Below, piece after piece: positions 12,269 through 63,980 of a DNA stretch of 64,000 nucleotides (its first letter is position 1; every line of letters starts with the position of its first letter). Below the pieces are notes generated by a model, which was not told where the DNA came from, ran no database searches, and saw only the letters and a program-made list of their open reading frames with translations. The position numbers and the translations under genes are program-made. The stretch is taken from assembly GCA_035771165.1 (NCBI GenBank), contig JAWNZC010000344.1, forward strand, positions 146,501 through 210,500, read 5' to 3'. This stretch comes from Paragorgia papillata. Its lineage: Eukaryota > Cnidaria > Anthozoa > Scleralcyonacea > Coralliidae.

Positions 12269-12305
12269 CGCTACTGTCAGTTTCACGCTGGGCGATCTTC
12301 AGGCG
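12269..12305 (-). ncRNA. Hammerhead ribozyme-like motif in PLE1
   Basis: Read on the minus strand: stem I CGC, core CTGAAGA (one change from CTGATGA), stem II CGC-CCA-GCG flanked by U and U, GAAA, stem III ACT-GAC-AGT, then A and GCG closing stem I. Compared with the PLE2 copy, stems II and III differ in sequence but keep pairing (CCC/GGG to CGC/GCG, ACC/GGU to ACU/AGU). The core substitution probably impairs cleavage of this copy. Confidence 0.6.
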
Positions 12306-12482: not shown

Positions 12483-12542
12483 TGCTGCGCTACCTACATT
12501 CCTACCTTTGTTCTTGCCTACACCTACGTTCTTTATCTTAAA

Positions 12543-13858
12543 TAGCCTGCGTAGCTGGCGGTTTTTAATAAGGGGTTGGGGTCTTGGTGAAGAAGCGGGT
12601 GAGGGCAAAGAAGCGGGCGAGCGAGAAAAAGCGGGCGAGGGAGAAAAAGCGGGCGGGCGGAAGAGCGGGCGGCGGAAGAGCGGGAGCTGGAAAAACCGCC
12701 TGCCTCAAAACCTGGTGTTTTTGAATATCGCCCCTAACTAACACATCCTAAATCTAATTAAAACTAACCAATCATACGATAGTTTGTAATTGAGTTTGTA
12801 ATTCGATAGCTTGCACGTTGCTTTCAAAACAATAATAATAGTATCGTCTATCGAAAATCATTCAGGTGTGAATCTGTCAAACTTGTGTGCTTGTATAAAA
12901 GCGGCGAATGCAAACTCCAACAGAAAAAGTAAAAAAAGGAAGAAAACCTAACGTTCAGAGTGCCAACGATTTTTGCAGGTTATGTGAATGTTCCCTGAAG
13001 GTCAAATACGGTGATTTTGAGAAAATATCGTATATTTCAAATGAAAATCTCTTTAGACATTCAAAGGGCTGGGAGGACATGCCGACGCTACAGGATTAAT
13101 CTAGGATTTTTGGTGGACAAGTCTTCCAATCAGTCTGAACGTTTTTTTTGCAAGGCATGTGCGCGAAAGATAAGGTATGCCTGTGAGCTGTATAATTTCA
13201 TCAAAAACAGTTTAAACGACTCAAAGCTTTCGCAAGACTCAGCAAATAAAGCGGATACAAACCACAACTCACCTGTCAGCCCAACTGGTAGATACAAGCG
13301 ACAATTACCGTCAAGTGTTTCTTCACCGGATCGTAGCCCACAAATTAAGAAAGGATTCAAAGCTAGCGAACGTATAAGCAAACGGAACACGTCGAGAAAA
13401 AGCTTAGCATTTGCGAGTATAACAAGCGCAGCAACTGCGCGGTCAGCCATCGAGGATAACACTCTTAGGACTGACGAAATCCTCGCAAGTTTAAGCGTTG
13501 ACGAGGTGTTAGACACGAACACTACTCGGGTGAAAGTTTTCAAAATATTCAATGTTTCCAACGCTTTAACAACACACTTCTTTCACGGCCACGTTGATGA
13601 CTATCAACGATTCAACGCCTCGCGTGAGCCAAAATCGTTTGATCGCCGTGGTTTGATTGATGACAGCTATCGACAACAGCTTAAAATACTAACCAATCAG
13701 TATTTTCCGTTCACCAGTGGACGGGTAATTCAAAAACACCAGGTTTTGTGGCAGGCGGTATTTCCAGCTCCCGCTCTTCCGCCTGCGCGCTCTTCGCCCG
13801 CTTTTTCTCCCTCGCCCGCGAGACCCCAACCCCTTAAAACCGCCAGCTACGCAGGCTA
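12543..13858. mobile_element. 1316-bp DNA transposon with long inverted repeats and 9-bp target duplication
   Basis: Left end TAGCCTGCGTAGCTGGCGG and right end CCGCCAGCTACGCAGGCTA are inverted. The arms extend about 130-180 bp through purine-rich GCGGGCGAG repeats (12543-12725; 13735-13858). Flanks are the perfect 9-bp duplication TATCTTAAA (12534-12542 and 13859-13867). A 9-bp target duplication with long inverted repeats is typical of Mutator-like elements, though Merlin also gives 8-9 bp. It inserted into PLE1. The interior codes for a small zinc-motif protein, not a transposase, so it is non-autonomous or has captured a gene. Confidence 0.75.
12908..13735 (+). pseudogene. ZAD-like zinc-motif protein inside the inverted-repeat element
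   Basis: The ATG frame at 12908 encodes a CRLC pair followed by NLFRHSKG. After a one-base frame change near 13095 it continues with LVDKSSNQSERFFCKACARK. The two CxxC pairs about 60 residues apart resemble the zinc-associated (ZAD-type) fold of metazoan DNA-binding proteins. A Ser/Lys-rich region follows and the frame ends in the right inverted-repeat arm. The promoter would lie between the left arm and 12908. Either a captured host segment or the element's own DNA-binding protein. Confidence 0.5.
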
Positions 13859-14712
13859 TATCTTAAACTTGTTTTTGTGCCGACATGTTGAAAGGATTTC
13901 TGATTTTTTGTTAAGAAAAGTGGGTTTTTCGGATTTCATAATGCAAAGTTTTTCTTCCAAACATAAATTACATCGGTTAGATCCCCCTGAGTGTGCTGCT
14001 GACCGTTTTAAAATTGACCAATTAATGTTAAAATTTTTTGTTTTTCAAATTCCATATGTGTTTGGAGAGTTCGGTTTCGTTTGAATATTTTTTGTGTTGA
14101 AAAGATTTGGTGTGGTTTCTCAGTTTCTGTATCGCTCCTTAAAACTGTTTGCTGTCATGCCTATGTAATGCTTAGTGTCATTAGTTTCGAAATAGTTACT
14201 TTATATATGATGTTGTTTGTCAAACATTGCCCACCGAGTGGGCATTGATCTTTATTTCTGCAGTTACAACCACTTGTGCTATTGTTTTTTCCTTAATTTT
14301 TCCTAAGAATGTGTGTGTTGTGTTTCGTGATTGTGGATTTAATGTTGTTCATGCAGCTATAACTAACTTTTACTGTGTTTCTGTTGAAAATCTTGTGTAG
14401 CTTGTTGTGTGGTGGGAAATGTTTATCAATTAAGTTTAAGAAACATCGTCCTATGTGTGTTCTAACGTTCTTGCTGTATGGTGGGTTAAACCAAATGATG
14501 TTTGTATGTCGCTTCCTACGTGGTTGGCTTGTTTCTTCATTGGCTTGCGTGTATACTAATTGTTGGTTAAAATTGCTGTGGTGTAATGCGTTTTGGTATG
14601 TGGGTGCAGACTGCTGGTATGTTGTGTAGTTTGATGAAAGGAGTGAAATGCGCTTATTTATGGATGTTGGGAGTTGTTTTAAAATACTAGGTGGGTGGTT
14701 TGAATGCTTGTT

Positions 14713-15625
14713 AACATTGCGTACTACGTCATTTTTGATATCTCAAGTTGGGAATTTCTGTCAGACAAAAATTTGACAAAAATTGCGTTGTGTAATAGCA
14801 AGACGTGGCTTGTAGTACAATCATTGACAAATCATTACAGTGTTTTATATAAACTATATTTTCATGATTATTCGTTCGTGATAAGAATATCAAATTATGA
14901 AATTATGCGCATTTCGGAAAACAAAGGAATATAAAAACACCTCCTGAATAAAAGAGTGTTCGTGTTTGTCCTATGCCAACATTGATAGATTGGTTGTTGT
15001 CGCGCTCTGAATGAGGAAAAGCAAGCTCACCTTGTGGATGGATGCGATCACATCGGTAAGAGTATTTCTTTGTCATTTTAATTGCAAATTCAGTATTAAA
15101 GTGTATTTCGCCTGTTTAAAATACGAGAAAATAACACTGATTTGATAAGCGGTAAATAAACGGCATTAATACCAGAAAAAGAAATATTGTGGTATGTATC
15201 TGTGATTTAACATAAAATTCCGTATATAAATAACTAAAGGATGGGATATAAAGCATATAAATACCTTTCTTCTATTTGCCCAAGAACTTTTGCGGCACAT
15301 GAGCATACTCAACTGCCTACAGATGTGATTTCGCCAAGAAATTTTAATGAAAAATCTCGAAACTGAACCCAATCTCGATCACTTTTCATAAACGTTTTAT
15401 CGTCTTCTGGCTTGAACAGGCTTTCTATGTTCTTATCAATGCACTAAAAAGACAACATAGGTACTTTTTTTATTGGTTATTGAATGTATTACTCTAATAT
15501 TTTACAAAGAAAATACCTCTTCATCACTGCCACTGGTGTCCATATATTACAATAACAGTACGATTACTATAATAAATGCGGGTGTTTATATATAAAGTGA
15601 GAGATGGAAGCGTGAAAGAAAGTAC
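14713..15625. other. No gene seen
   Basis: AT-rich sequence beyond the broken end of PLE1. Short frames overlap on both strands and have no recognisable motif. Confidence 0.5.
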
Positions 15626-16603: not shown

Positions 16604-16788
16604 TGTCGAGAACTTCCTGTGTTAACATTATTATCAGCGGTATTTCAGTTAAAGTACGTGGGCTCAGAAGATCGCTTCTGGACCTCGTCTGACCTCGTGT
16701 ATAGTTTTTTGTGTTTGTGTTGAATAAAGTTTAAATATACCTGTGGAATTCCTCCTTTTTATACTATCGAACCCCGCTATTCTTTACA
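16604..16788 (+). repeat. 5' LTR of BEL/Pao 1
   Basis: 185 bp, TG...CA termini. It contains TTGAATAAAGTTTAAATA, a likely polyadenylation signal region. One mismatch to the 3' LTR. Confidence 0.95.
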
Positions 16789-16796
16789 TTAATGCC

Positions 16797-18384
16797 ATGA
16801 CCAGGATGGAGGAACTACAACGCTTACAAGCTTCATGAAGAGGTCACAAATCACAGACACAAGCAGATGAAATCGCGTTGATTACCCTGAAGACCTCGCT
16901 TGAGCAACTCGAGAGGAAAGGGGATTTGTTAAAGGAGCTGGACGAAAAATTTGCTGCGAGACTTTCAGATCCCGACGACCTAGAAGCTGAAATTCTTGAA
17001 TCGGAAGAACTATGTTGTGAACTCGAAGACAACCTGAACCACATTCGTAAGTACATTGAAGTATCTGTGTTATCAAATCAATCAACTCAGCTTAGACAAG
17101 AAAATCAGCCTTCTACATCCAGTTCACTAGCTGTAAACCATACCACAACGCCAGAAACGTCGCCTACACAAGTTAATTCACGTATTGAGTCGAACAATTC
17201 CACACTGACACAGCAAAATCCTTCCAATACCATGAACAATACTGAAACACCTTCCAATTCACAGCATCCACCAATAACAACTACAGTGTAGTACCAATCC
17301 AACTCAAAGTGTATGTAGACTCCCAAAACTTACCCTCCCAGTGTTTCTTGGCAACCCACTTAATTGGCAGTCCTTTTGGGACTCATTTGAATCAGCTGTC
17401 CATGGCAATTCATCCTTAAATGGGGTTCAGAAGTTTAACTACTTGAAAGCACAACTCAAGGGGGATGATTTACAAGCAATAGCTGGCTTTCCACTCACTA
17501 ATAGCAATTACGAACAAGCTATTAACATTCCCAAGAATCGATTTGGCCAACCGCACAGAATTGTTAATGCTTACATGCAGGCTCTCCTTGGCATCCCCAA
17601 CCCAAATGAACATCTAGATAGTTTTCAGAGTTTCTATGACACTCTGGAGACTCATATTCGAGGTCTTGCATCACTTGGAAAGAGTCAAGAATGTTATGGT
17701 GATCTATTAATACCTATAATATTAGAAAAGCTGCCTAATGAATTCAGAAAGAACATGGCACGAGAACATGGGTCCTAGAATGGACGATTGATGAACTGTG
17801 AAATGCTATACGTAAGGAACTGAAGATTTTAGCAGCAGGAGAGTTCGTCAATTCGCAAGGTAGGGAACACAAGCAAACATCATCAACCATTACCTCATCC
17901 TTTTACACTGGTGCTGAAGGCACGCATCGACCACCACCACCACCACGTCCAAAACGACCTACATGTACCTTTGTGTGTGTTTACTGCAAGCAAAACCATT
18001 CATCAAATGCCTGTACAAATGTCACGACATATGATCAACGACTCAATTATTAAGAAAGGAAATCTATGTTTTAACTGTCTTGGGCACCACAAGGCCTCCC
18101 ACTGTCATTCTAGAAACCGATGCAAGAATTGCAATCGTAAGCATCACACCAGCCTTTGCAACAGTGACAATCCTGTACCCAAAGACCCACCACCTAAAGA
18201 CTTACCTAGAGACCCACCCAGAGACATGCCCAGGCAGCTACCTAGAGACCCACCTAAAGACATACCAGTCAGCAACAACGAGATGACAGAAAAACCAGAA
18301 TCATCTGTCCTTACAACATTAACACCTAACCAATCCAATCCTACAGCTTCAAACTACAGCAAACCCGAGAACCGAGCCCCCTAC
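16797..18384 (+). pseudogene. BEL/Pao 1 gag, frameshifted
   Basis: An ATG close to the 5' LTR starts a frame that ends after 13 codons. The coiled-coil-rich part resumes at 16878 (LLKELDEKFAARL, then ELEDNLNHIRKYI), followed by a Thr/Asn/Ser-rich linker. After another frame change the DUF1759-type capsid segment starts with FLGNPLNWQSFWDSFESAVH (17344). The C-terminal part (17911-18384) has two Cys/His knuckles, CFNCLGHHKASHC and CKNCNRKHHTSLC, the first one residue short of the usual spacing, then a Pro/Asp-rich repeat (DPPRD, DLPRD). Gag would package the element RNA; this copy cannot make one continuous protein. Confidence 0.85.
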
Positions 18385-18395
18385 TGAAGACAGCA

Positions 18396-21300
18396 GTAGC
18401 CACTGTTAGTACAACAACCACTCATACAGAAGCCAATATACTTTTTGACGAAGGCGCTCAATGCTCTTTTATTACACAGTCCCTCGCTAGAAAACTTGGT
18501 TTGCATGCTGTTACAAGTGAAACCATTAGCCTTTCCACATTTGGAGGCAATACTACACTAAAGAGAAACCTGGATGTTGCAACAATCAACATCGAAACAG
18601 AAACCTTTGGAGAAATTCCAATCCAAGTCCTCATTGTACCTAACATTGCTACTCCACTACAGAATCAAGTTAGAACGTCTCTCAAGGATATTCCTTATCT
18701 GAAAGGGTTCAAGCTTGCCCATCCAGTCACAGATGAGGAAAATTTCGAGATTTCCCTGTTAATCGGAGCAGATCATTATTGGGATATAGTCCAGGACCAC
18801 ATCATCCGCGGAAATGGCCCAACAGCAATGCAATCAAAGTTAGGGTACCTGTTATCTGGACCAATTGACTCCCCACCTGGTGAAGGAACCTCGACCAATA
18901 TGCACAACAACATTATTTCCCACCATGATGAAGACAGTCAACTGGAACGATTCTGGTCCTTGGAATCTCTGGGCATCACTCCACCAAGCGCTGACGATGT
19001 TGAAAACAGTTTTCCCTGTGAGTATCAAAACCCCTCCATCTCACGCGAGAAAGATGGTAGGTACACTGCCAAGTTTCCATGGAAAGAATATCACCCACCT
19101 CTGTCGTCGAACCTTTCCATCTGTGAGAAACGTACCAGATCGACAATTCATCAGCATTTGAGTCGGACACCTGCCTTGTTACACACCTATGGAACAATAA
19201 TCGCAGAACAAGAAGAAAGAGGATTTATTGAGAAGATACCGAACACCGCGTCAATCAACAATGCTCATTACATCCCCCACCACCCGGTAAGAAAGGATTC
19301 GGCAACGACTCCCATCAGAATAGTCTATGATTGTAGCTGTCGTCAGTCACCAACATCTGCAAATCTCAACGACTGCCTCAGAGCTGGCACACCACTACTT
19401 AACGACATGACGGCTGTTCTACTTCGCTTTCGTTCCTACACCTACGGCATAACAACAGATATTGAAAAAGCCTTTCTCCATCTCAATCTTGCTGAATGTG
19501 ACAGGGACTTTACTAGATTCTTGTGGCTTTCAAATCCCCACAACCCAGATAGCTCCTTTGATACATACCGCTTCAAAGCCGTTTCGTTTGGTGCTACGAG
19601 TTCTCCGTTCATGTTACATGCCACTCTCCAACACCATCTAAGCAAGTTTACATCATCTGTTCTCGTAACATGAAGGAGAACATGTATGTCGATAATATCC
19701 TTTCTGGTTCTGATACAGAACTAGCCGCAATCGAGTACTACGACGAAGCCAGATCCATTATGAATCAAGCCAATTTCAACCTCCGCTCTTGGGCGTCGAA
19801 CAGTACTGCACTACAACACAAGACATCTGAAGAACAAACTGCTGACCCTAGCAGCGAAGTCGACGTCCTTGGCCTCAACTGGAACATCTCGACCGATACT
19901 CTTTCCTTAGCCACCAAGAAACCGATATCCACTCCTCCATTGATCACTAAACGCGAAATCCTACAACAATCTTCAAGTATCTTTGATCCACTCAGCATGA
20001 TTACTCCCGTAACCGTGCGAGCTAAGATGTTCATGCAACTACTGTGGCAAAAATCTATGGATTGGGACGAACCACTCGAGGAACAGCTGCAACAAGATTG
20101 ACTTAAGATTGCAGATGATCTACAGACCGCACAAGACACTGTGATTCCAAGATATTATTTTGACACTTCCTTAACACCCCAGTGCGCATCACAACTCCAT
20201 GTTTTTGTCGATGCAAGTACAAAGGCATACGGCGCAGTGACGTACCTCAAACAGGCAGATCAAACATCACGTGTCATGACGAAAACACGTGTCGCCCCTC
20301 TCAAAAAGCGGACGCTACCTCAACTGGAGCTAATGGCAGCTCTAGTAGGTGCCAGACTAGCTTCATTCATTCACAACGCAATCAAGACCTGCTATGAAGA
20401 TTTGGAAGTACACCTCTGGTCTGACAGTCAGATCGTCTTACACTGGATCTATAGTAACAAAGAACTTAAACAATTTGTTGCTAACCGCATTCAATCCATC
20501 AAAGCACTGTTTCCTCCCAACTGCTGGCACTACTGCCCCACAAACGACAATCCAGCTGACGTATTAACACGCGGTGCTACAACTTCTCAGATGCAATCAT
20601 CGACACTGTGGCGCAACGGACCATCATGGCTTACGTCATCTAACGAACAATGGCCCGCCTGGACTCCGACTACAGCTTTACTGACCCACTCTCCTCAGCC
20701 AATACAAGAAGTTCAGACCCTACAAGACACGACCACGCCGACCCCTAACGTCTCTGGTGAGATAGGCATCCATCGTATTGTCGACATATCAAGATACAGC
20801 AGTCTGGCTAAAGTAATCCACATCACAGCCTATATTCTCAGATTTGTGGGAAACCTAACCAAACAAACCAAGCAGACGGGACCACTTACCGTTCCAGAGA
20901 AAGTCGCAGCAGAGAACCGTTGGATATCGAACTGTCAGCAAGCAGCCTACCAGGCTGAACTGATTAACTTACCTCAAAGGGCTGCTCTCGTCTACCTCTG
21001 GTGAAACAACTTCGACTGTTTCTTGACCTCCGCTGCGGAGGAAGGATTCACAACGCCCCTATTCACGATTCCGCAAAATTTCCCTCCTCTTACCGGCGGA
21101 CCACTCCTTCACCAAGCTAGTTGTTCACTCTGCCCACGCCAACCAACTTCACTCGGGGGTGAACTCGACACTAACAAGTATTCGCCAGAAATTCTGGATT
21201 CCAACCGCCCGGCAAGTTGTCAGGAAAGTACTACGCAAATGTGTTACGTGTCGAAAACATGGTGGAAGACCATACACAAATCCAGACCCTGCACCCTTAC

Positions 21301-22421
21301 CAAAATTACGGCTACAAGAGACTACACCATTTACAGTCACCGGATTGGACTTTACCGGTGTACTCTACGTGCAAACAACTACGAGGGAGAAGAAAGTTTA
21401 TATATGCTTATTCACATGCGCAGCTACTCGAGCAGTCCATTTGGAAATAGTTGATGATTTAAGCGAAGATACCTTCCTTAAAGCTTTTCGGAGATTTGCC
21501 AGTAGAAAGTCACTACCAAGGAAAATAGTTTCAGACAACGCCTCGACATATTTGTCGGCCGCGGAGGAACTTAAACGTTTGTTCCAGTCTCCATCATTGA
21601 AGAAAGCGTTCAGTCAACGAGGTGTAGAATGGCATTTCATTCCTAAGAGAGCCCCGTGGTACGGTGGATTTTGGGAGAGACTAATCGGTCTTACAAAGAA
21701 CGCCCTGAAGAAAGTATTAGGTCGTGCACACACTACCCTTTCGAGTCTCCAGACAATCGTTGTTGAAATCGAAGCCATGTTAAATGATCGACCTATTACC
21801 TACATATCGTCCGACATCCGAGATGAAGAACCCTTCACACCATCCCATCTACTGTATGGACGACGCATCACCTCCCTTCCCCACTTACGCGAGGAGGACG
21901 GCGAGGCTTCATAAGTCAAAGCGGGTGCCAAAAAACAAGCGCTACTTCTGAAACATTTTTGGTCTCGATGGAAGGGAGAATACCTGACGTCTCTTCGAGA
22001 ATTTCACAAAGTGACAGGAAACAACAGCCAAACAATACGCACTGGTGAGGTGGTCTTGGTTCACGACGATAGTCCGAGAACAAGCTGGAAACTGGCAGTA
22101 ATTGAAGACCTCATCAGAGGAGGTGACGGATTGATCCGTGCCGCCAATATACGTACCAGCACTGGTCGAATAAATAGACCAATTGCTAAACTATACCTTC
22201 TTGAAGTTACAACCGACGCCATATCTGATTATGTTGCAGTTAATGAACCTGAAGAAACACCCGTAGACCAACCTCAAGAAACACCCGAAGACCAACGTGG
22301 AGAAATTGAAAATGAACGTCGGCCTATGCGAGCAGCAGCTAGAAGAGCATCGAATCGGATATCTACATGGACGCGAATACTCGGCGCGCCCCCGGAGGAT
22401 GTCGAGAACTTCCTGTGTTAA
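18396..22421 (+). pseudogene. BEL/Pao 1 pol (protease-RT-RNase H-integrase), inactivated
   Basis: Protease: ILFDEGAQCSFIT near 18436. RT: IVYDCSCRQS and TDIEKAFLHL in the 18501-19673 frame, then a frame change just before MYVDNILSG (19682), where the usual YVDD is YVDN. In-frame TGA at 20099-20101. RNase H: VFVDASTKAYGAV, LELMAAL, WSDSQIVLHW (20190-20460). Integrase: zinc-binding part with CVTCRKHGG, catalytic residues in GLDFTG, VSDNASTY and GFWERLIG (21340-21690), reached after frame changes between 21004 and 21159. In-frame TAA at 21912-21914 separates the DUF5641-type tail (HFWSRWKGEYL). All domains are present in order, so the element is structurally complete but non-functional. Confidence 0.9.
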
Positions 22422-22584
22422 CATTATTATCAGCGGTATTTCAGTTAAAGTACGTGGGCTCAGAAGATCGCTTCTGGACCTCGTCTGACCTCGTGTACAG
22501 TTTTTTGTGTTTGTGTTGAATAAAGTTTAAATATACCTGTGGAATTCCTCCTTTTTATACTATCGAACCCCGCTATTCTTTACA
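22400..22584 (+). repeat. 3' LTR of BEL/Pao 1
   Basis: 185 bp, identical to the 5' LTR except for one transition at 22498. Followed by CTAAT (target duplication). Confidence 0.95.
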
Positions 22585-22809
22585 CTAATGTTTATACCAA
22601 GATCTGGGCCAAGATGGCGCGGTCAAAAACAAAATGGCTGGGAAAATGGCCCTGGCCCATTTTCGGACTTGGACCCAGTCTTCTTTCACTCTCGGACATT
22701 TTAAAATGGCGAATATAAACTATTTTCACCTTACAAAATGAAACGGCCTGGGAACGAGGTTGCATGTTACCATACCCCCATTATGATTGTAATTTGTAAA
22801 TATATGTTG
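22585..22809. other. No gene seen; right flank of BEL/Pao 1
   Basis: Begins with the CTAAT target duplication. It contains repeated CAAAATGGC/AAAATGGC words related to 16080-16110. No coding signal. Confidence 0.5.

Positions 22810-25570: not shown

Positions 25571-25651
<81 letters not shown>
25571..25651. repeat. (TA)n microsatellite
   Basis: About 40 TA units, immediately before the PLE terminal-repeat pair and right after the interrupted coding sequence. Confidence 0.95.
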
Positions 25652-25653
<2 letters not shown>

Positions 25654-25861
25654 AAGTATGAAGTATAGTTTTACCTTAAAGTCTTCGCTACCAGAGGTTT
25701 CACCCAAAACGGGATCATGATGAGTCGCCTGATGATCCCGTTTAGGGTGAAACCTCTGGTAGCGAAGACTTTAAGGTAAAACTATACTTCATACTTTGTA
25801 TTTTGCTCTATCTATATATGGTATTGAGCACTCTCTAACATTTCGTGAACCAAAACTCACT
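25652..25861. repeat. Inverted pair of Penelope-like terminal repeats (pLTR)
   Basis: The left arm (25652-25720, minus orientation) and right arm (25726-25861, plus orientation) are the same repeat that flanks PLE2, joined head to head at the hammerhead stem I. Shared words: ACAAAGTATGAAGTATAG and CTATACTTCATACTTTG. The right arm runs through ATTTCGTGAACCAAAACTCA to the end. Inverted terminal-repeat copies are a known Penelope arrangement. No internal PLE coding sequence lies here. Confidence 0.85.
25726..25764 (+). ncRNA. Hammerhead ribozyme motif in PLE terminal repeat
   Basis: Order 5' to 3': CGC (stem I), CTGATGA, T-CCC-GTTTA-GGG-T (stem II with an outer U-U mismatch), GAAA, ACC-TCT-GGT (stem III including the last A of GAAA), A as cleavage nucleotide (25761), GCG (stem I). 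This is a minimal type I arrangement with a GUA cleavage triplet. Very short stem III often needs dimers for activity. Confidence 0.75.
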
Positions 25862-25921
<60 letters not shown>

Positions 25922-48562: not shown

Positions 48563-49109
48563 TTAGTGCGCCCCTGCTCGAACTCACATTATTCACAAAG
48601 TTGGGAAAGATAAACCTGTATGGATAAATTAATCACAATAACGCACGTTTTTGAATGGACTCTGGTCTGTCGCAAGCAACTCCCAAGTGAAAAAAAAACG
48701 GAAACTAAAAACCTAAGGAGATGGATTGTCAATTATTTGACAGTTAATTAGCCTGCGTGGCAGGCGTGTTAATCGGTTATGACAATGAAAAGAAGCTCAT
48801 TTTTCAGATATTAATTATCGTCCTCAGAGTAACAATTTTTTTACAAATCAAAAAACAAACCCCAAAGTCATGAACTAAGGCTAAGCGATAGAGTCACGTA
48901 CAGATTAGCCCAGATATCTTATGCCGTAATAATTTCCGATTTATTCTGAGTGTATTTCTGTTCTATTTGGCGGCATATGAAATACTGTGGCTTGCAGTCT
49001 GGCATATCCGATTTCCTGTTTGGTGTAACTGGAGGCGACAACAAACTTCATTGTTGGGATGACATCATCTTAGTCCAAGACACAGAATAAATATTGAGCA
49101 ATTGGAAAA
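48563..49109. promoter_or_regulatory. Divergent intergenic region between SR-rich and BRCT genes
   Basis: 547 bp separate the starts of two genes that point away from each other, so it may hold a bidirectional promoter. Also contains a lone TTAGCCTGCGTGGCAGGCG (48750) like the ends of the element at 12543, a short remnant of that family. No core promoter motif could be assigned with confidence. Confidence 0.35.
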
Positions 49110-51414: not shown

Positions 51415-51605
51415 TATATATACAGTACAGTGTATATATATAATATATATATATATATCCTGAACTGTATATACTGTGAATGAATGAATAACTTTATTTA
51501 AGTGTCAATGTATTTAGCTATATATTACAGCTAATTGGGGATATACTGTATATATATATATATACAGTACAGTATATACAGTTCAGTATATATATATATA
51601 TATAT
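51415..51605. repeat. (TA)n and TACAGTA-rich low-complexity region
   Basis: Alternating TA arrays with CAGTACAGTATA words, partly palindromic. It directly precedes the PLE2 terminal repeat, as (TA)n also does at the other copies. Confidence 0.85.
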
Positions 51606-51746
51606 ATAAGTGAGTTTTGGTTCACGAAATGTTAGACAGTGCTCAATACCATACATAGATAGAGCAAAATACAAAGTATGAAGTATAGTTTTACCTTAAA
51701 GTCTTCGCTACCAGAGGTTTCACCCTAAACGGGATCATCAGGCGAC
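51606..51746 (-). repeat. PLE2 terminal repeat, 3' copy (complete)
   Basis: About 140 bp including the full hammerhead motif. From AAG at 51608 to the cleavage nucleotide at 51709 is 102 bp, the same length as in the 5' copy (54046-54147). Confidence 0.85.
51706..51744 (-). ncRNA. Hammerhead ribozyme motif in PLE2 terminal repeat
   Basis: Minus strand: CGC (51744-51742), CTGATGA (51741-51735), U-CCC-GUUUA-GGG-U, GAAA, ACC-UCU-GGU, A at 51709 as cleavage nucleotide, GCG (51708-51706). Identical to the 25726 copy. Stem II has an outer U-U mismatch, seen in all copies here. Confidence 0.75.
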
Positions 51747-51749
51747 TGA

Positions 51750-53971
51750 AAAATATCGGTTAGTGGGCTGCTTAAATGCGTTAGTTGGGGCGTGGCTGTG
51801 GGCGTCGAAACGTCCGGCGCATTCGTTTGGAGCGTGGGTGTGGGCGTCGAAACGTTGCGCGCATTCCTTTGATTATTTAGGTTGTTCATCCGAAATCTGT
51901 TTTTGTGCCGACAGGTCTAAACTATTTCTGATCTTTTGTTTAGTAAGAGTTGTTTGTCTGCCTTCATGATGAAAAGTTTTTCGTCCAAACATAAATTGCA
52001 TCTTTTTGATCCTCCCGTGTAAGAAATTGAGTGTTTTAGTATAGACCAGGTTATGTCGAAACTTTGGGTTTTTTCTTTTAGATTCCAAATGTATTTCGAA
52101 AGTTCCGTCTCATTTGAATACTTTTTATTCTGGAAAGATTCAGTATGGTTACGATATCGCTCTTTAAATGTACTTGCTGCCATGCCAATGTATTGCTTAG
52201 TGATGTTCGTGTTGCTTATGGAAATAGATGCCTTGTATACTATGTTGTTTGTCATGCATTGCCCACGTAGGGGGCAATTGTCCTTAATCCTGCAATGGCA
52301 ACTGCTTGTAACTATGCTTCGTGGGTTGCTTTTCCTGATTGTGCGTGAATTATGTTTCGTGATAATAGACTTGACGTTGTTCATGCAACTATAGCTAATC
52401 TTGACTGTGTTTCTGTTAAAAAGTTTGTGAAGCTTGTGTCCTGGTGGAAAGTGCTTGTCAATAAGGCTAAGAAAGTTGCGTCCTATGTTTGTTTTGACAT
52501 TTTTGTTAAATGGAGGGTTAAACCAGATGATATTGCGGTGTCTATTTCTGCGTGTTTGCTGTGGTGCTTCTTGTGTGTAGTTTAGCTCATGGTTGAAATT
52601 GCTGCGCCTTAATGCATTTTGGTAAATTCGTGCGGTTTCATGGAATGTCCGCTCGTCAGACGAGAGGAGGGAAATGCGCTTGTTGATTGATGTAGGTAGC
52701 TGTCTTAAAATGCTTGGTGGGTGGTTTGATTGCTTGTTTATGTATAATGGATCGTCATTGGGCTTTCGAAAAGGTTTGTATTTTCCATTGGTTAGGTCGA
52801 AAGTAACGTCTAAAAAGTTTACTGAAATTAAATTTGCTTCTGCCGTGATTTTTAAGCCAAACTGCTCGAAACTTTTGTGAAGATCTTTTCTTGTTTTGTC
52901 TGCCAATCGTGCGGTCTTATTTTTTAGTACTGCCAATCCGTCGTCTCTATATAGGCCAATATTTTGGTTGCCAAACTTTTTCCCTAGGTCGTTTAGAATG
53001 AAAAGGCCTACTAGTTCGCATACTTCAGCGCCGTCATAGCTACCCATGGTAACATCAAATAAACTGTTGCTGTCTTTTTTTATCCACGGTTTTTCGTTGT
53101 TGAAAAGGAGCGATTTTCTAGCGTGTTTTACTATTGAAATGTCACTTTCGGTAATGATAGCCAAATTTCTGGCCCAAGATAATGCTTGGTCCAGAAGGTC
53201 TTCAGAAATTGAAGGGTAGAAATTAACAATGTCAAACGAAATGAAGGTATGTCTGCTTTTCTCTTCAATGTTGCCAAACCATTCCTTGTGTGTTTCTCCA
53301 TTGATTTACGTTCAAAATGTTCCTTAACTTAGAGTTGATTTTATCAAGAATTACTTTGCTGAGCTTTCCGGACTCACTTTTAGCAGGATTAATTAATCGG
53401 CATGTTGGGTTGTTTTCGAAATTATCCTTATGGTCTATGGAAATTATCCTTATGGTCTATTATCCTATTATCCTTTTGGTCTTCCCAAGTTATTCGAAAT
53501 GTGTTTCAGTTCATTGTCTATCTGTTCTATGGTGCCCTCTGATCCATGTTTATATGTTTTTGTTATATTGTCATGCAAAAGATTGTTGTATGTGTCGAGC
53601 GAGGTTTCATAAATGTTTCTAGTTTTGCTGGCGAAAACAAAAATATTACGTGACGAATTAATTTTCTTCAAATCGTTTGCCAAAGATTCCTGAAATGGAT
53701 TGCTCGTATGCCGAAATTTGGTGTTTTCAATGAGTTTTATTAAGTCGTCTTCGAAAGGTTTAATATCCAAAACAGTGGGAGGTGTTTTGTTAGAAGGCAG
53801 TCTGCAATGGTTATTTTTTGACGGGTTTCTATCACCATTGAGAAAAAAGTGAGCTTTCCATCTCATACGTTTTATTACACTTTCAACTTTTTCGATCAAA
53901 TCTTTCAAATAAGCATCTTGTGGTGGTATTGGAATGTTTTTTAGTGAATGGTCAAACCGAAATTTTCGCAT
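51750..53971 (-). pseudogene. PLE2 polyprotein: reverse transcriptase plus GIY-YIG endonuclease, frameshifted
   Basis: N-terminal segment (53971-53468): MRKFRFDHSLKNIPIP and FASKTRNIYE. RT: RLINPAKSESGKLSK (near 53400), FISFDIVNFYPSI (near 53250), LYRDDGLAVLKN (the YRDDG catalytic signature of Penelope RTs, near 52930). Then the Cys-rich linker CHCRIKDNCPLRGQC and the endonuclease KQYIGMAASTFKERYRNHTESF (GIY-YIG type) near 52150. Frame breaks lie near 53470 and 53300. The tail has a short Ser/Thr/Pro repeat. The enzyme would nick DNA and reverse-transcribe the element RNA in the nucleus. Confidence 0.85.
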
Positions 53972-54042
53972 TTTTAAGGTATAATACTATAAAACTACAA
54001 AACTACGTAAACAAGAGTGCACAACCGGTATACGGGTGCGAA

Positions 54043-54149
54043 TATAAGTGAGTTTTGGTTCACGAAATGTTAGAGAGTGCTCAATACCATATATAGATAG
54101 AGCAAAATACAAAGTATGAAGTATAGTTTTACCTTAAAGTCTTCGCTAC
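54043..54149 (-). repeat. PLE2 terminal repeat, 5' copy, starting at the ribozyme cleavage site
   Basis: Matches the 3' copy from AAGTGAGTTTTGG to CTTCGCTAC and then stops in (TA)n. On the element strand it therefore starts with (GTA)GCGAAGAC, that is at the predicted hammerhead cut, and lacks the upstream ribozyme core. Confidence 0.8.
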
Positions 54150-54185
54150 ATATATATATAGTACAGTATATATCTATTAACTCGC

Positions 54186-56039: not shown

Positions 56040-56330
56040 ACAAGTCTATTTCTATAGGAATTCCTATAGGATTTCCTATTGAATCCTATAGGAATTCCCA
56101 CTGAATCCTATAGGATTTCCTATTGAGGAAATCCTATGGAGGAAATCCTATGGAAATTCATCAGCGAGAAAAACAAAGCAAGTTCCCCCTACGAAAATAT
56201 CCAATAGAATATTCCATAAAAAATTATATAGAATATTCTATTAGATTTTGGGACGTATTCTATTGGATTCTCTATGGAATATTCTATAGGATATGCTATA
56301 AGATGTAATAGAAAATGCTTTAGAATATTC
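56040..56330. repeat. AT-rich palindromic minisatellite, left part
   Basis: Repeated near-palindromes: CCTATAGGAATTCC, TTTCCTATTGAATCCTATAG, GAATATTCTATTAGATT and similar. It is continued after the BEL element (63866-63980), which inserted into it. Confidence 0.8.
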
Positions 56331-56797
56331 TGTAACTCCCGGCACGCAAATATCGTAAAATCTGTGATGCTCGCCAGGTCGCCGAGATTGGGATTCGCAG
56401 TATACTGGCAAGCTACATGAATTTCGCGGGAACAATAATTGTCTTTAATACAATAATTGTCTTTAATAATCCACGTAAACTTGACGTAAAACTACAGAAT
56501 ACAATAGGGAAGAGAGATACGTGAAGAACTATACACTTGACAAAACAGAACTAAACAAGGACATAAGTATGTACATGTAGATCGCAAATCTCACCGAATT
56601 TCCTCTTCTTAAAGCGAGCACACAGCCAAAGAAACTCGTAAAAATTAACAGTACTTATCTCACTAAATCGCACTGAAGGTCTGAAACTATCTGAAACACT
56701 TGAGTTCTCGTTCTATAATAATTTCAGCAATAGAGAAGGCTCGTATGAGCCCGCAAACCTTGCAGCGTCAGTCCTTGCGCGTGAGCCCGCAGTTACA
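56331..56797 (-). repeat. 3' LTR of BEL/Pao 2 (467 bp)
   Basis: 46 bp longer than the other LTR because of an 18-bp extra copy (AATACAATAATTGTCTTT-type) and a 28-bp stretch (within ACTATACACTTGACAAAAC) absent from the 5' LTR. A few substitutions otherwise (for example at 56415 and 56661). Confidence 0.95.
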
Positions 56798-56819
56798 TGG
56801 CTCCCCTAAATTGTTTCAG

Positions 56820-59800
56820 TTAAAGACAATTTACTACACAAAGAAAAAACAAACAAACAAAAGTTTCCATAAACGATCCTTCAATTAGGTTCTCCGACGG
56901 GGAATCTTTAATTGGAGTGTCTTCGGTCTTTAGAAGGAACACCAGCTTCTGGATTGGTCTTTCTAAAACAGTCGTTGCTCGAACTCGTTTTCCTTCTTTG
57001 GTATGTAAGGGATCGCTCACGACGAGCGTTACCTTTCGCACAAGTCCGTCATCGTCGGTGTACGCTTCTTCTACGCGGGCAGTGCGCCAACAATTTATCG
57101 GCACGTTATCTTCCTTTATTAGCACGATATCGCCTGCTTGCATATTTCGATGGGGATGTACCCATTTCTGCCTTTGCTGCAAAGAGAACAGGAATTCCTT
57201 GCGCCAGCGTAGCCAGAATTGGTTAACAAGATATTGCACTCGTCGCCAGCGTTTCACGAGATAGATGTCAGCTCGTTGAAATTCACCAGGGCGCGGTAAA
57301 AGGACTCGTGATTTCATAGTGAGCAGGTGATTAGGAGTGAGTGGTTCAGATCCGTTAGGTGAGGTTAAGTAGTCAATAGTGAGTGGTCGACTATTCACTA
57401 TTGACTCAGTCTCACACATAAATGTTCTCAGCGACTCTCCGTCTAATTGCGTACCAGATTCATCCAGTAGAGCGTTGAGAACATTACGCACCGTCCTTAT
57501 TTGGCGTTCCCACACTCCACCCATGTGGCTGGCTGTGGGAACGTTTGTCTGGAACTCAATCCAGTCGCATTCTTTCTTCAGTAAGAAATCTTGCACTTTG
57601 TCTTGATTCATTTCCTTTACAGCTTCGGTCAGTTCGTTATGAGCTCCAACTAAGTTTGTACCTTGATCGGATCTCAGAATTCGCACGGGGCCACGTCTTG
57701 CTAGAAAACAGCGCAGCACGTTGATGAACGAGTCCGTTTCTAGAGTTTTAGCCACCTCAAAATGTATAGCTCGGGACGCAAGGCAAGTAAACACAACCCC
57801 GTATCTTTTCATCTCTCACCATCCCTCCTTGATACGCCAGGGACCAAAGTAATCCACTCCGCAAAACGTGAACGGAGGTGAGGGTTCCAACCGGTCTTGG
57901 AGTAGGTCGGCCATTTTCTGCTCTTGAGTGGAACCGCGTAGTTTTCTGCAAGAAACACAATCGGAAATATAACGGGCAACGGTGGAACTTCCACCAGTTA
58001 TCCAAAATCCATTTGCACGAAGCTCATTCAACGTCATTCCACGGCCTTGATGATGAATTCGTTGGTGATAGTGCCTGATAACTAACGCTGTGATGTGTCC
58101 CTTTCGAGGGAGGATGACTGGGTGCTTGATATGATAAGGGACGTTAGCTCGGGTAAGGCGTCCACCAACTCGAAGAATTCCTTCGTTATCCAAGAATGGA
58201 TCCAAGGGAAAAAGAGAGCTTGTTTTCTTCATAGTCGCCTTACGTTGTCGGATATGATCTCTGCCGTTAGAACTGTTCCCTTGAATAGAACGCAATGATT
58301 GGATTTCTTTCGTGAACGAATCTTCTTGCACTACTTTAACGATAGCCAGCTCAGCTTGACGGAGCTCTTCAACGTTTGACTGACGATATTGCAGCACGTT
58401 CGTCTTTGATGAATTCTTGTAATTTCGACAGATGCTCTTCGTTCGTTGTTGCAATCTTAGGATCGCTGCTATGGCTCTTTTGGCATGATGCCATTTGGAA
58501 AAGTACTTCAGACGCTCAGGAATCGTTAACAATTTTTTGATGGACGTTTGGGTAACGAAAGCCTTTGTCTTGACTTCGGGATCGTCGTGCGAAAGCGGAT
58601 GTTCATCAACAGTACTAGTAGTCAGGTCGAGTTGGGAGTTCCAGAGAAATGAAGGACCAGAAAGCCATCGCTCGCTGTCAAGAAGCTCTCGAGGAGTTAA
58701 GCCCCTCGAAGCTTCGTCGGCCAGGTTTTCCTTGCTTTTGATGTATCTCCATTGCTCAGGAGAGGTCTCGTCACGAATCTGCTGCACTCTGTTTGCGACA
58801 AAGACGTGGAATCGTCGAGCCTCATTATTAATATACCCGAGTACCACCTTGCTGTCGGTCCAATATACGTCGACGATCTTGTCATAATCTCGCTCTTTGT
58901 GCAGTATGGTGCTGACTCTAACGGATACCAGAGCTGCCGTCAATTCCAAACGAGGAATTGTGATGTTCTTCAGGGGGGAAACGCGGGACTTTCCCATAAC
59001 AAGTTCGCAGTGAACTTCTTCTTGTAGGTTGACTAAACGTATATAAGAACACTGTCCGTATCCAGACGCACTGGCATCGGAAAAGTGATGAATCTCCGTG
59101 GACTTCAACTGTCCAAAATCGTTTGGTTTAAAGCATCTTCGCACTTTCATGTCGTTAAGTAAGAAGAGTTCGTTTCTACACTTCTCCCATCTGACTCTAA
59201 TTCGGTCTGGAACTGGGTCGTCCCAGTCGGTTTCTTCGCGGCACAGCTCTTGAAGTAGTTGTTTACCCGCAAGCAGGACAGTAGCCACGAAGCCCAGGGG
59301 ATCATATATCGAGCTGATAGTAGAGAGGATTCCTCTTCTGGTTAAAGGATTATCTTGAAGGGTGATACGCATTTGAAAGGTATCTGACTCAACGCACCAG
59401 TAGACATTGAGCGCTCTTTCGATCGGTAAGCGGTCGTTATGAAGATCTACATGTAAGTTCTTCAGCTTAGAAGCACGGTCTTCGGAAGGGATTGACGCAA
59501 TAACTTTCTTCGAACTAGAAATGAATTTGTGAAGCCGTAAGCCCCCTTTCGTACACAAATCCTTGGTTTGCTGAATTAGAGTGATGGCATGTTGAACCGT
59601 GTCGACCGATTTTAATCCGTCATCAACGTAAAAATCGTCTCTCACAAAGTTCGCTGCCTCGGTTCCGAACTCGTCTTCATGGTCGTCTGCGATTTTCTTG
59701 AGACCGTAATTGTGACATCCTGGCGATGATCCCGCGCCGAACAAGTGTGCGGTCATTCTGTAATCAACTGGACGCTTTGTGGTGTCTCCGTCCTCCAACC

Positions 59801-61312
59801 ACATAAATCGTAGGAAGTTTCGGTGAGCTTCTACCACTTTGAATTGGTGGAACATTGACTCTACGTCACATATGAACGCGGTTGATTCTTGCCGAAATCT
59901 ACACAGAACTCCCACGAGATGATTTGTGAGGTCTGGACCTTGTAGAAGGCGGTTATTCAGCGATTCGCCCTTGTAGTTCGCACTGCAGTCGAATACTACG
60001 CGTATCTTCTCTGGTTTTATTGGGTGGTATACCCCATGGTGTGGGATATACCATATATTACCATCTTCACTCGCAAGTTCGTTCTCGGGAACCTTCTCCG
60101 CATAGTTCTTTCCAATAAGTTCGTTCATGAAGGCAATGTAGTTGTCGCGGTATTTCTTATTGTTTTCCAAGCGAGTCCGATGTTTAGTTAAACGATGCAA
60201 AGCAAGAGATTTGTTGTTGGGCATAATTGGGGTTTCTTCGCGAAACGGTAGGGGCATTTCGTAGTGCCCGTCCTCTCTGACGAACGCCTTGCTCCATTTT
60301 AGATAGGAATTTCCTGTCATACTGTGATATCGGTTGTTCCGCACTTCTTTCAGAAAAGTCTGATTCTAACATTTCTCGAAATTGCACAGGATTGATGACT
60401 TCCCTTACGGTTGGCTTGATGGAAAAGTAAGCAGGTTTTCTGTGGTGACGCATTGGTGAATGGGATGCTTTGTGTCGATATCCGGTGTGCAATGCCCGCC
60501 GAGATTTCGTTTTCGTCCATGCTTGTTCTGCCAACGTTGCCGATAATCCCCCATCCAAGATCGGTCCTTTGAGCGTACGGTTCGTTTTGTCGTCCGGGAA
60601 TGACTTCACGAGGCATGATCGCTTGGGAACAGTTGGAACCAATAAGAAGTCCCACCGTGATGTCTTTCTGAAGAGGCATTAAGTGACAGGCGACACATTC
60701 AAGATGTGGCCATGACCGAGTCATTTCAGGACATGGTATTTGCTGTCGTTTCGCTGGTATTGTCTCACAGGAAAAGGTTGTTGGAAGCTGTATAGCTGTA
60801 TTGTGGTTTATGTCGCTCACTACGAGGCCCTTGATTTTCTGACTATGTATTACTTCGTTCTCAGCATGCATAGTTGATAAAGACAGTTGTGTCTTGGGTC
60901 CGCTGACTTGAAGATGATTCAAAGTTTCTTGCGAGATGAACGTGGTGTCCGATTGATCATCTAATAGAGCGTAAACAAGTTTCTCCTCTTGGAGATTATC
61001 CACGTGACTTATCCAGACAGGTACAATCATGGAACTGATTTGGTGTTGATACCCGCCTTTCATGAAGCATGTCTTGGTACAGCGAACTGTTGGTGTTGCA
61101 GGATCTACTGGAGTTTGCGAATTATTATTATCCTCATTTTTCTTAAAATCCCCATGCAGAGATGTTGGATGGGATTTTCCACACGTTTTGCAGGTTTCTC
61201 TTTTCTTGCAGTGTCTGCTTATGTGACCTTGCTTTAGGCAACCAAAGCAAAGTCCCTTCGACTTGGTGTATTCCTTTCTGTCCTTATGTCCTTTCCGCGA
61301 AATTCTTGACAT
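56820..61312 (-). pseudogene. BEL/Pao 2 protease-RT-RNase H-integrase region, few breaks
   Basis: 61312-60350: two zinc knuckles (CFGCLKQGHISRHC and CKTCGKSHPTSLH) followed by protease ALLDDQSDTTFIS. Two frame changes lie between 60450 and 60340. The 842-codon frame 60344-57816 carries RT (IRVVFDCSANYKG, FICDVESMFHQF, FYVDDGLKS), RNase H (HHFSDASASGYGQ, LELTAALVSV, YWTDSKVVLGYI) and the integrase zinc-binding part (HHQGRGMT, CVSCRKLRG) to CGVDYFGPWR. After one more break near 57815 the frame 57812-56820 holds LRSDQGTNLVG and GGVWERQIR (integrase Asp and Glu) and the C-terminal FWLRWRKEFL and GDIVLIKED. All catalytic residues seen are intact, unlike BEL/Pao 1. Confidence 0.9.
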
Positions 61313-63233
61313 GAATTAAGTTCGTGAGCTCCCTTGCAACGAATACAAGAATTAGTGGCTAGGATTTCTTCTTTGGTCGATCTACAATTGTTGCGATCAT
61401 TTTCTTCAGAATTCGTCACGAGAGTATTTCTAAATTTTCCGCCATGCAGCAGGTGAGACTTGCTTCTTAGCCGTGCATCAGAACCTTGACTCCTTGGTCG
61501 CTTGGATTCATCTTCCTTGCTGACCCTTCGCAGGTTAATTGGATCGCAAGCTATGTCGGATTCCTTCACAACACATTTCACAAACTCTGTGAATGCAGGA
61601 AAGCTTCCTTTCTCTTCCTTCCAGTTGTATACCAATCTTCCCCATCTAACTGCTGCCCACCTTGGTAGCTGGGACGCCATCTTGTGGTTCTCTTGGTGAT
61701 CATCGAGTGCTTTCAGACTGCTTACCTTTTCCACCGCCTTCTCACACTGGACAAGGAGATCTGCGTATTTTCTAAGACCGTGACCATCGTTCGGCGCAAC
61801 TTGTGGCCATGCATCAAGCCTTTTACGAAAGGCCGATGCTACAGCGAATGAGTTTCCGAATCGCTTCGACAACAGCTTCTTCGCTTTCTCGTATGCATCC
61901 TTGCCATCGAGCAACATGAATCCTTCTACCACTACCTTCGCTTCGCCTGAAACGTATTTTCCCAGGAAATGCAGCCTTTCTGCTGTGTTGATTGCTCGAC
62001 TTTCTATTAGGGTTTCAAATGCCTTCAGCCAAACTGGGTACTGCAGGGGATCGCCAGAAAAGACACCAGGTTCTGGCAAAGGCGATCTACTTTGATTCTG
62101 GATTTCCAACAGCCTTGAGATCGTATTTAGCTGGGCTTGGACCAAGTTAGGGTTGCTGAGAGGGTTTTCCGTGCCAGTTGAAAATTGGTTTCCACAATTA
62201 AGAGGTGTTGCATCCTGTGGGCTAGTAGGTGAATGTGAATGAATTTATTCATTACGAGTATAAGCTGCTGCTAAAGGATTGAGCTGGGTGACGTCATCGG
62301 ACCTTGATTGTTGGATGCCGTATTGGATGCTGTAGGCATGGCCTGATTTCCAGATTCGTGCGTCTGAGCTTCGCCACTTGTCAAGTTGGGTTGAGATTCG
62401 AGAAATTTCTTAATGTGTTCCTCTATATCATTCTGATCATTGTTCCCAAGGTCAGGTGGCATGAATTCTTCTTCGAATCTTTTACATACGTCGATCCTAG
62501 CCTTCTTCTCAGCCAGCTCCTTTGTGATCTTGTATTTCTCAGTGGAATTTTCTATTTGTTCTTTCACTCTTTTCTCTTCTCTCTCGATTTCCAATTTTTT
62601 CTCTTCGATTTGCTCCAGAGCCCTTCTATTCACCTTGTATAAATCCTCCTTCATCTGAACCATATTCATTCTGGCCTTAAGCGATGCTCATTCTTCTTCT
62701 AAGTCAAGTCGATGCTGTCGTGCAGAAGAAGTGGTGCTAGTCGAAGAAAAATGGGACAACTTACTTTTTCCAGATTTCCGACTACTCCTCGATGATGCAA
62801 TGGAACATCTATCATCATCTATTTTTTTGAGCTCGCGTATTACTGCACCTGCATCTTTCAGCATCTGATTAGTTTCCTGACTCATTGTCTCAAATCTTCC
62901 AAATAAGGTTATTCTCTCTACTTCTGACTCCAGAACGTTATCTAGTGCTTCTTGAGCTACTGTGAGTTCACTCATTAATTTTGTCAAAACTTGGGTTCCC
63001 TTCTCCAGTGACTCTACATTTTTCTCATTCACCAGTTGGGAATTCAGATTATTGACCTGTTTCCTCCATTTCTTTGACGCAGTGTGAAAATCATCCTGTG
63101 ATTGTTTTATCGACTTATTTTCTCTTGATAATTGTTTAGATTGTTCCATTTCCTCGATTCCTTTAGTGTTTTCGTTCATTTCGTCGTTTTCCCTCGAAAT
63201 TTCGCGACGAATTTCCGTATTTTGGTCACTCAT
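61234..63233 (-). pseudogene. BEL/Pao 2 gag, interrupted by two stops
   Basis: Likely start MSDQNTEIRREIS at 63233. A long coiled-coil-rich N-terminus (NENTKGIEEMEQSKQ, VERITLFGRFETMSQ) reaches an in-frame TGA at 62688-62690, then continues in the same frame (LEQIEEKKLEIEREEKRV). After a frame change near 62280 and an in-frame TAA at 62245-62247 comes the capsid-like part with EPGVFSGDPLQYPVWLKAFE and YVSGEAKVVVEGF (61234-62145), ending with CIRCKGAHELNSC. This segment overlaps the start of the protease frame. Gag would form the particle and bind the RNA. Confidence 0.85.
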
Positions 63234-63444
63234 TTCGTAGTTACGCAATATCAAAATGGCGCCAAACAATTAGCATGTCAGTACCATGTGGTTCATATAG
63301 ATTCCACAAAGAAATGTCGATATACCAATGAACACTCTCGGTAAATATCAGAATCCACAAAATTCAACAAGGTAAAAATAGCTGAATAACTCTAACCTTC
63401 GAACGTGTAGGATATCCTTCTGTCAGTCGAGATATTCGTTTTAC

Positions 63445-63865
63445 TGTAACTCCCGGCACGCAAATATCGTAAAATCTGTGATGCTCGCCAGGTCGCCGAG
63501 ATTGGGATTCGCAGTATACTGGCAAGCTTCATGAATTTCGCGGGAACAATAATTGTCTTTAATAATCCACGTAAACTTGACGTAAAACTACAGAATACAA
63601 TAGGGAAGAGAGATACGTGAAAACAAGGACATAAGTATGTACATGTAGATCGCAAATCTCACCGAATTTCCTCTTCTTAAAGCGAGCACACAGCCAAAGA
63701 AACTCGTAAAAATTAACAGTGATTATCTCACTAAATCGCACTGAAGGTCTGAAACTATCTGAAACACTTGAGTTCTCGTTCTATAATAATTTCAGCAATT
63801 GAGAAGGCTCGTATGAGCCCGCAAACCTTGCAGCGTCAGTCCTTGCGCGTGAGCCCGCAGTTACA
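63445..63865 (-). repeat. 5' LTR of BEL/Pao 2 (421 bp)
   Basis: Direct copy of 56331-56797 lacking two segments of 18 and 28 bp. Followed on the plus-strand right side by TATTC, the target duplication. Confidence 0.95.
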
Positions 63866-63980
63866 TATTCTATAAGCTTTATTACAAGATATACAATAGA
63901 ATATTCTTTGGAATTCTACAAGATACTCTGCAAAACATTTTATCAATAGTTACGCAGTACAATATTCTACATTAACACAC
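63866..63980. repeat. AT-rich palindromic minisatellite, right part
   Basis: TATTCTATAAGC, AATAGAATATTC and AATTCTACAAGATAC words continue the pattern seen at 56040-56330, showing that the BEL element split one array. The window ends shortly after. Confidence 0.75.

Follow-up and report, generated by a model that had tools for sequence, protein, structure and literature searches.

Minimal hammerhead motifs with compensated stems in two diverged Penelope-like elements of Paragorgia papillata

Introduction

Do two short motifs in a 64,000-nt stretch of Paragorgia papillata DNA (contig JAWNZC010000344.1; the whole stretch is hereafter called the window) represent hammerhead ribozymes of Penelope-like elements, and does the U-U mismatch that both carry set them apart as a subtype? 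A first-pass annotation of the sequence had proposed both, and had noted, rightly, that hammerheads in Penelope-like elements are known: such elements have been reported to bear minimal hammerheads in their pseudo-LTRs, which possibly cut as dimers and whose role is unknown (PMC6155905, PMC7761336).

Hammerhead motifs in the window

Both strands of the window were scanned with a descriptor combining a pattern with a stem requirement (CTGANGA, stem II, GAAA, stem III, UH, stem I), with loop limits that were first wide and then tighter. Two distinct hammerhead motifs in three copies were identified, all of which were also matched by a covariance model (R1, described below):

12269 to 12305, minus strand: hammerhead motif of the first element, PLE1 (scan and covariance model, E 3e-7, flattered by the choice of training loci)
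51706 to 51744, minus strand: hammerhead motif of the second element, PLE2 (scan and covariance model, E 2.1e-9, flattered likewise)
25726 to 25764, plus strand: PLE2 hammerhead in its second copy, within a fragment of the terminal repeat and identical to 51744-51706 on the minus strand (scan and covariance model)

Standard hammerhead numbering and the standard definition of type I are followed here. The PLE1 motif comprises stem I (CGC/GCG), the core CTGAAGA, stem II as U-(CGC/GCG)-U, GAA, and stem III (ACU/AGU) with loop GAC, and cleavage is predicted between 12272 (A) and 12271 (G). The PLE2 motif comprises stem I (CGC/GCG), the core CTGATGA, stem II as U-(CCC/GGG)-U, GAA, and stem III (ACC/GGU) with loop UCU; its stem I reaches 4 bp once the pair 51705/51745 is counted (scan extent 51745-51705 on the minus strand and 25725-25765 on the plus strand), and cleavage is predicted between 51709 (A) and 51708 (G), and between 25761 and 25762 in the second copy. 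The type I core (CUGANGA...GAA), A15.1-U16.1 and an NUH triplet before stem I are present in the window motifs, which by sequence pairing form three stems of 3 bp each (4 bp for stem I in PLE2), with stem I open. The consensus G-C pair at 10.1-11.1 is absent, U-U being found in both distinct motifs; this was not taken to exclude a hammerhead, because U-U has been published as a natural variant (PMC3088659).

The scan thus returned the order of parts described in the first-pass annotation, namely CTGA(T/A)GA, GAA-A, a tri-nucleotide loop III, and A followed by GCG across the cleavage site, as well as the U-U flanking stem II in both motifs; the identity of the copy at 25726-25764 (plus) to 51744-51706 (minus) was also correctly described. 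That annotation gave no strand for the PLE1 motif or for the motif at 51706-51744, and both lie on the minus strand. A fourth match obtained with the wide limits (minus strand, 3351-3284), with a stem II segment of 28 nt and a stem III segment of 23 nt, was rejected as chance-like.

The host elements

PLE2 is nearly complete and lies on the minus strand, while PLE1 is reduced to a remnant. The following features were annotated around the motifs:

51866 to 53971, minus strand: PLE2 coding region, with a reverse transcriptase and a C-terminal GIY-YIG-like part (tblastn with protein P0001, 67-81% identity)
54042 to 54146, minus strand: partial terminal repeat at the PLE2 5' end, starting with the base at which the 3' cleavage product is predicted to begin
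54147 to 54172, minus strand: 5' flank of PLE2 resembling a target duplication, 24/26 identical to the 3' flank
51553 to 51578, minus strand: 3' flank of PLE2 resembling a target duplication, partner of the 5' flank
25723 to 25878, plus strand: PLE2 terminal-repeat fragment with the second hammerhead, 99% complementary to 51592-51747 over 156 nt
25631 to 25718, minus strand: inverted, head-to-head PLE2 terminal-repeat fragment that begins inside the hammerhead and lacks its first part
13862 to 14715, minus strand: PLE1 coding remnant, 5'-truncated (tblastn, P0001 residues 416-590 and 594-701)
12542 to 13859, no strand assigned: probable DNA transposon separating the coding remnant of PLE1 from its hammerhead, with inverted ends of 19 nt

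The PLE2 coding region consists of three pieces in different frames (53971-53483, 53435-53277 and 53284-51866), covering residues 1-163, 182-234 and 235-709 of P0001 in tblastn; an in-frame stop at 51917 lies within the last piece, and the stretch 53305-51917 (462 aa) is open. Among 7995 scored candidates, 5246 relatives of the PLE2 protein were found at E 1e-3 or better, and YRDD, a reverse transcriptase motif of the YxDD type, was present in 15 of 16 aligned rows. YxDD and GIY-YIG are used here in their established meaning as protein motifs. Searches of Pfam for reverse-transcriptase (RVT) or GIY-YIG domains and of PDB sequences gave no match for this protein. The structure model of the 462-aa stretch (mean pLDDT 70.7, pTM 0.38) matched the reverse transcriptases of group II introns, retrons and telomerase (best E 8e-5, TM about 0.2-0.3 of the query), so that, as modelled, the PLE2 protein has a reverse-transcriptase fold. 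Residues 355-448 are modelled as strand-strand-helix-helix-strand-helix (pLDDT near 90 for residues 351-420) and contain, in the alignment, the invariant residues Y357, Y372, G374, R383 and H387; we read this modelled C-terminal part as following the GIY-YIG element order, and no GIY-YIG structure was among the best 50 fold matches listed.

The PLE1 and PLE2 proteins are 68% identical over 173 aligned residues, in agreement with the annotation of the hosts as two diverged Penelope-like elements. With PLE1 truncated at its 5' end and the frame of PLE2 disrupted, neither window copy can be active at present. The 5' and 3' copies of the PLE2 terminal repeat are 98% identical over 108 nt. Terminal repeats (pLTRs) of Penelope-like elements often occur in partial tandem or inverted form, as do the inverted fragments at 25631-25878 and the tandem frames of the related locus L018 described below.

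Several other repeats were observed in the window. The ends of the transposon nested in PLE1 (12542-12560 and 13841-13859) match at 19/19 positions, and a 23-nt stretch resembling its end is also present at 48744-48766. The head-to-head PLE2 fragments at 25631-25878 adjoin AT repeats, with the hammerhead start at their junction. Two LTR retroelements with direct repeats, probably of the Pao/BEL type, were located at 16604-22603 (matches to an aspartyl protease and an integrase, with a reverse-transcriptase match below the cut-off) and at 56330-63866 (Pfam matches to Peptidase_A17 and an integrase zinc-binding domain).

Related elements and compensatory changes

A Penelope protein search confirmed two of 34 candidate stretches in genome contigs (L017 and L018) and none of 90 in viral contigs. 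Both confirmed stretches are probably host DNA inside bacterial assemblies; L018 comes from the assembly of a Solemya gill symbiont, and its Penelope protein identity is 46-50%. In L018 two Penelope frames follow each other in tandem, and the motif (1250-1293) is placed between them, about 120 nt after the end of the first. The L017 motif, truncated by the contig end, lies about 120 nt beyond a minus-strand frame, and the PLE2 motif about 120 nt beyond the end of the protein match. In L017 (1-3787), part of the Penelope element is repeated behind it in inverted orientation at 92% identity; this head-to-head layout either is biological or arose in assembly.

L018 shares the hammerhead architecture of PLE1 and PLE2, including the same U-U, with further compensated changes in the stems; its cleavage triplet is GUU, versus GUA in the window motifs. 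Across PLE1, PLE2 and L018, the 27 cells of the stem comparison (nine pairs in three distinct sequences) are all occupied by standard pairs; at four of the nine positions, I-2, II-2, II-3 and III-3, both sides have changed. Pairs were counted by eye, using the inner three pairs of L018 stem I, and the MAFFT alignment had placed gaps inside stem II. The changes reported in the first-pass annotation, from CCC/GGG to CGC/GCG in stem II and from ACC/GGU to ACU/AGU in stem III with pairing kept, were found as described, and the three-way comparison bears out that pairing in both stems is preserved through compensatory change.

Folding and proposed self-cleavage

The sequence, architecture and covariation of the motifs, their element context and their presence in other Penelope elements were established directly. 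On these grounds the motifs are very likely minimal type I hammerheads that two Penelope-like retroelements carry in their terminal-repeat (3' untranslated) portion, with tandem RNAs that would cut themselves. RNA from tandem or partly tandem copies would self-cut between GUA and GCG in every repeat, giving RNA units that start with GCG, and U10.1-U11.1 would stand in for G-C without abolishing activity. Cleavage would probably proceed as a double hammerhead with a common stem III, or be aided by the protein of the element. The latter is plausible because the hammerhead of the Anolis element PAc cut only when protein was present (PMC11167929). Minimal Penelope hammerheads have been reported to lack a loop-loop contact between stems I and II (PMC6155905).

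In stem III, self-complementary positions number 8/9 in PLE1, 8/9 in L018 and 6/9 in PLE2. Two L018 RNAs cofold into a form resembling a double hammerhead, in which the core gains an additional A-U pair, while the PLE1 and PLE2 cofolds share stem III with stems I and II mispaired. The minimum-energy fold of the monomer is not the hammerhead in PLE1 (-6.1 versus -0.2 kcal/mol for the hammerhead), PLE2 (-7.2 versus -4.7 kcal/mol) or L018 (-12.7 versus -7.2 kcal/mol); in the viral-contig locus L002 it is. These monomer folds and the mispaired cofolds, together with the broken copies, the GUU of L018 and the Anolis PAc data, count against the ribozyme reading. For PAc, hammerhead cleavage was dispensable for insertion in vitro, and no RNA reads started or ended at the cut site (PMC11167929).

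A rival reading is that of relics, former ribozymes of families that no longer cleave, decaying in dead copies: the coding regions of PLE1 and PLE2 are broken, the minimum-energy folds are not hammerheads, and the stems have just 3-4 bp. Such decay is nevertheless unlikely, since the core is intact and stem changes are compensated despite the strong divergence of PLE1 and PLE2 at the protein level, and the same architecture is found in L018.

The U-U mismatch

The proposal that the mismatch defines a distinct subtype of Penelope-like hammerhead was examined in these elements and in viral contigs. U-U at 10.1-11.1 was found in PLE1, PLE2 and L018, three of the four distinct Penelope motifs identified, which is what a subtype would predict; the fourth, that of L017, has G-C, although this motif is weak (E 0.3) as well as truncated. 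In a tree of 176 columns, L018, on a long branch, adjoins the clade that holds L017 (support 0.91).

A pattern that fixed the core, CGC/GCG and GUA and left 10.1-11.1 free picked 16 loci from viral contigs. Their 15 distinct motifs carry G-C (nine, two of which failed the stem test), U-U (five) or G-U (one) at 10.1-11.1, and no other combination. Within the near-identical pairs L001/L014 and L003/L016, stem II differs solely at this position, as U-U/G-C and U-U/G-U, respectively. Natural U10.1-U11.1 mismatches have moreover been published for hammerheads (PMC3088659), as has a U-U at the base of helix II in the axolotl retrozyme hammerhead HHR_Amex2 (PMC7229834). A subtype defined by U-U is therefore very improbable, and the suggestion is not supported: this mismatch has been described before, recurs, and alternates with G-C or G-U among near-identical viral-contig hammerheads, so that on present evidence it marks no subtype.

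Three of the viral-contig hammerheads (L006, 7624-7664; L012, 3293-3337; L014, 5377-5419) lie in or beside tRNA gene clusters, where they may have a role in processing the transcripts of tRNA arrays; no paper on hammerheads in tRNA arrays was among the titles listed in a literature search.

Chance level and covariance models

With 3-bp stems and the tighter limits, the generic descriptor gave three matches in the window versus one in 400 first-order Markov windows, or about 0.0025 expected matches per window; allowing 2-bp stems raised these counts to four in the window and 30 in the 400 random ones. When a fixed pattern was derived from the motifs of the window, it matched the window three times and 100 dinucleotide-preserving shuffles not once. 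The viral-contig loci were put to a stem test: 13 of the 15 distinct motifs obtained with the CGC/GCG and GUA pattern passed the stem test, versus 0/16 and 0/7 distinct motifs for two control patterns with another stem I and GUC (20 and 7 loci), whose matches lacked proper stems and had scattered letters at 10.1-11.1.

Of the 16 viral-contig loci, 14 served to build the covariance model R1; L013 (a duplicate of L007) and L015 (misaligned) were excluded, and L018 was reserved as a test. At E up to 10, the model gave seven matches in the window, L017 and L018 together. The three window motifs ranked first (34.8, 34.8 and 28.8 bits), with E-values that are flattering because the pattern used to pick the training loci (core, CGC/GCG, GUA) was derived from the window motifs, even though R1 holds no window sequence. 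L018, whose different stem I and GUU place it outside the reach of the training pattern, came next (19.8 bits, E 4e-4), followed by the motif cut by the L017 contig end (11.8 bits, E 0.3) and two weak window matches (E 0.46 and 2.9).

Rfam models, searched with cmscan, gave no hammerhead in the window either at gathering score or at E up to 10, nor in two 116-nt stretches of the window at E up to 10. The Rfam silence is uninformative rather than evidence of absence, because at gathering score, the only setting of this control, Rfam also found no hammerhead in 13/13 control loci (L001-L018 without L007, L008, L013, L015 and L017), six of them with the canonical G-C. The 29 Rfam matches obtained at E up to 10 were all under gathering score and were taken as chance; many coincide with AT or GT repeats or with the palindrome at 25.6-25.8 kb.

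A chance resemblance to the hammerhead, with which the lack of Rfam matches and the folding energies of the PLE1 and PLE2 monomers would agree, can practically be dismissed, given about 0.0025 matches expected per window against three found, model E-values of 2e-9 and 3e-7 (flattered by training-locus selection), the position of both motifs at the 3' ends of related elements, and the failure of Rfam on the control loci as well.

The 5' end of PLE2

The role of Penelope hammerheads was described as "still a mystery" in a 2020 review (PMC7761336). In this respect, the partial terminal repeat at the PLE2 5' end starts at 54146 with GCGAAG, the predicted start of the 3' cleavage product. As the GTA at 54149-54147 is common to the 3' copy, this end is certain only to within 3 nt. 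The 26-nt flank immediately before it matches the 3' flank at 24/26 positions; this apparent target duplication is not unique, since similar AT-rich units deeper in the 3' flank score equally or higher. It is conceivable, though rather doubtful, that the RNA from which a new Penelope copy arises owes its 5' end to hammerhead cleavage. The coincidence concerns one copy, PLE2, and a strict rule of this kind is disfavoured because other fragments begin elsewhere: at 25723 just ahead of the hammerhead, at 25718 inside it, and, in PLE1, inside the coding region. If cleavage did set the 5' end, genomic copies would preserve in their 5' ends a record of in vivo ribozyme activity, and if the PLE2 coincidence held over many copies, it would provide genomic evidence on the unsettled role of the ribozyme in retrotransposition.

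Comparison with known systems

The find is real but largely ordinary, as both the kind of motif and the U-U mismatch are already in print. What it contributes is a further two Penelope families, diverged from each other, in which a minimal hammerhead is conserved. The alternation of U-U and G-C between close relatives at the most conserved pair of stem II matters for search models, since Rfam at gathering score misses all 13 control hammerhead loci. The primary papers on Penelope hammerheads are reportedly those of Cervera and de la Pena (2014) and of Lunse, Weinberg and Breaker (2017).

The window motifs resemble the minimal hammerheads of Penelope-like elements and Terminons in element type, in their place in the pseudo-LTR and in type I order, as well as in a very short stem III that is capable of forming dimers; they differ from them, as far as those are described in citing papers, in the U-U at 10.1-11.1. 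The same mismatch at the same pair occurs in natural hammerheads of PMC3088659, in whose main text a word search did not find "Penelope". The axolotl HHR_Amex2 (PMC7229834) likewise combines type I with U-U at the base of stem II. Finally, the Anolis Poseidon element PAc (PMC11167929) is also a canonical Penelope-like element with a hammerhead in its terminal repeat. The PAc cut site is located 26 bp downstream of the start codon, unlike the predicted site of L018 and the 5' end of PLE2, which by their coordinates precede the start of the protein match by about 148 nt and about 175 nt, respectively.
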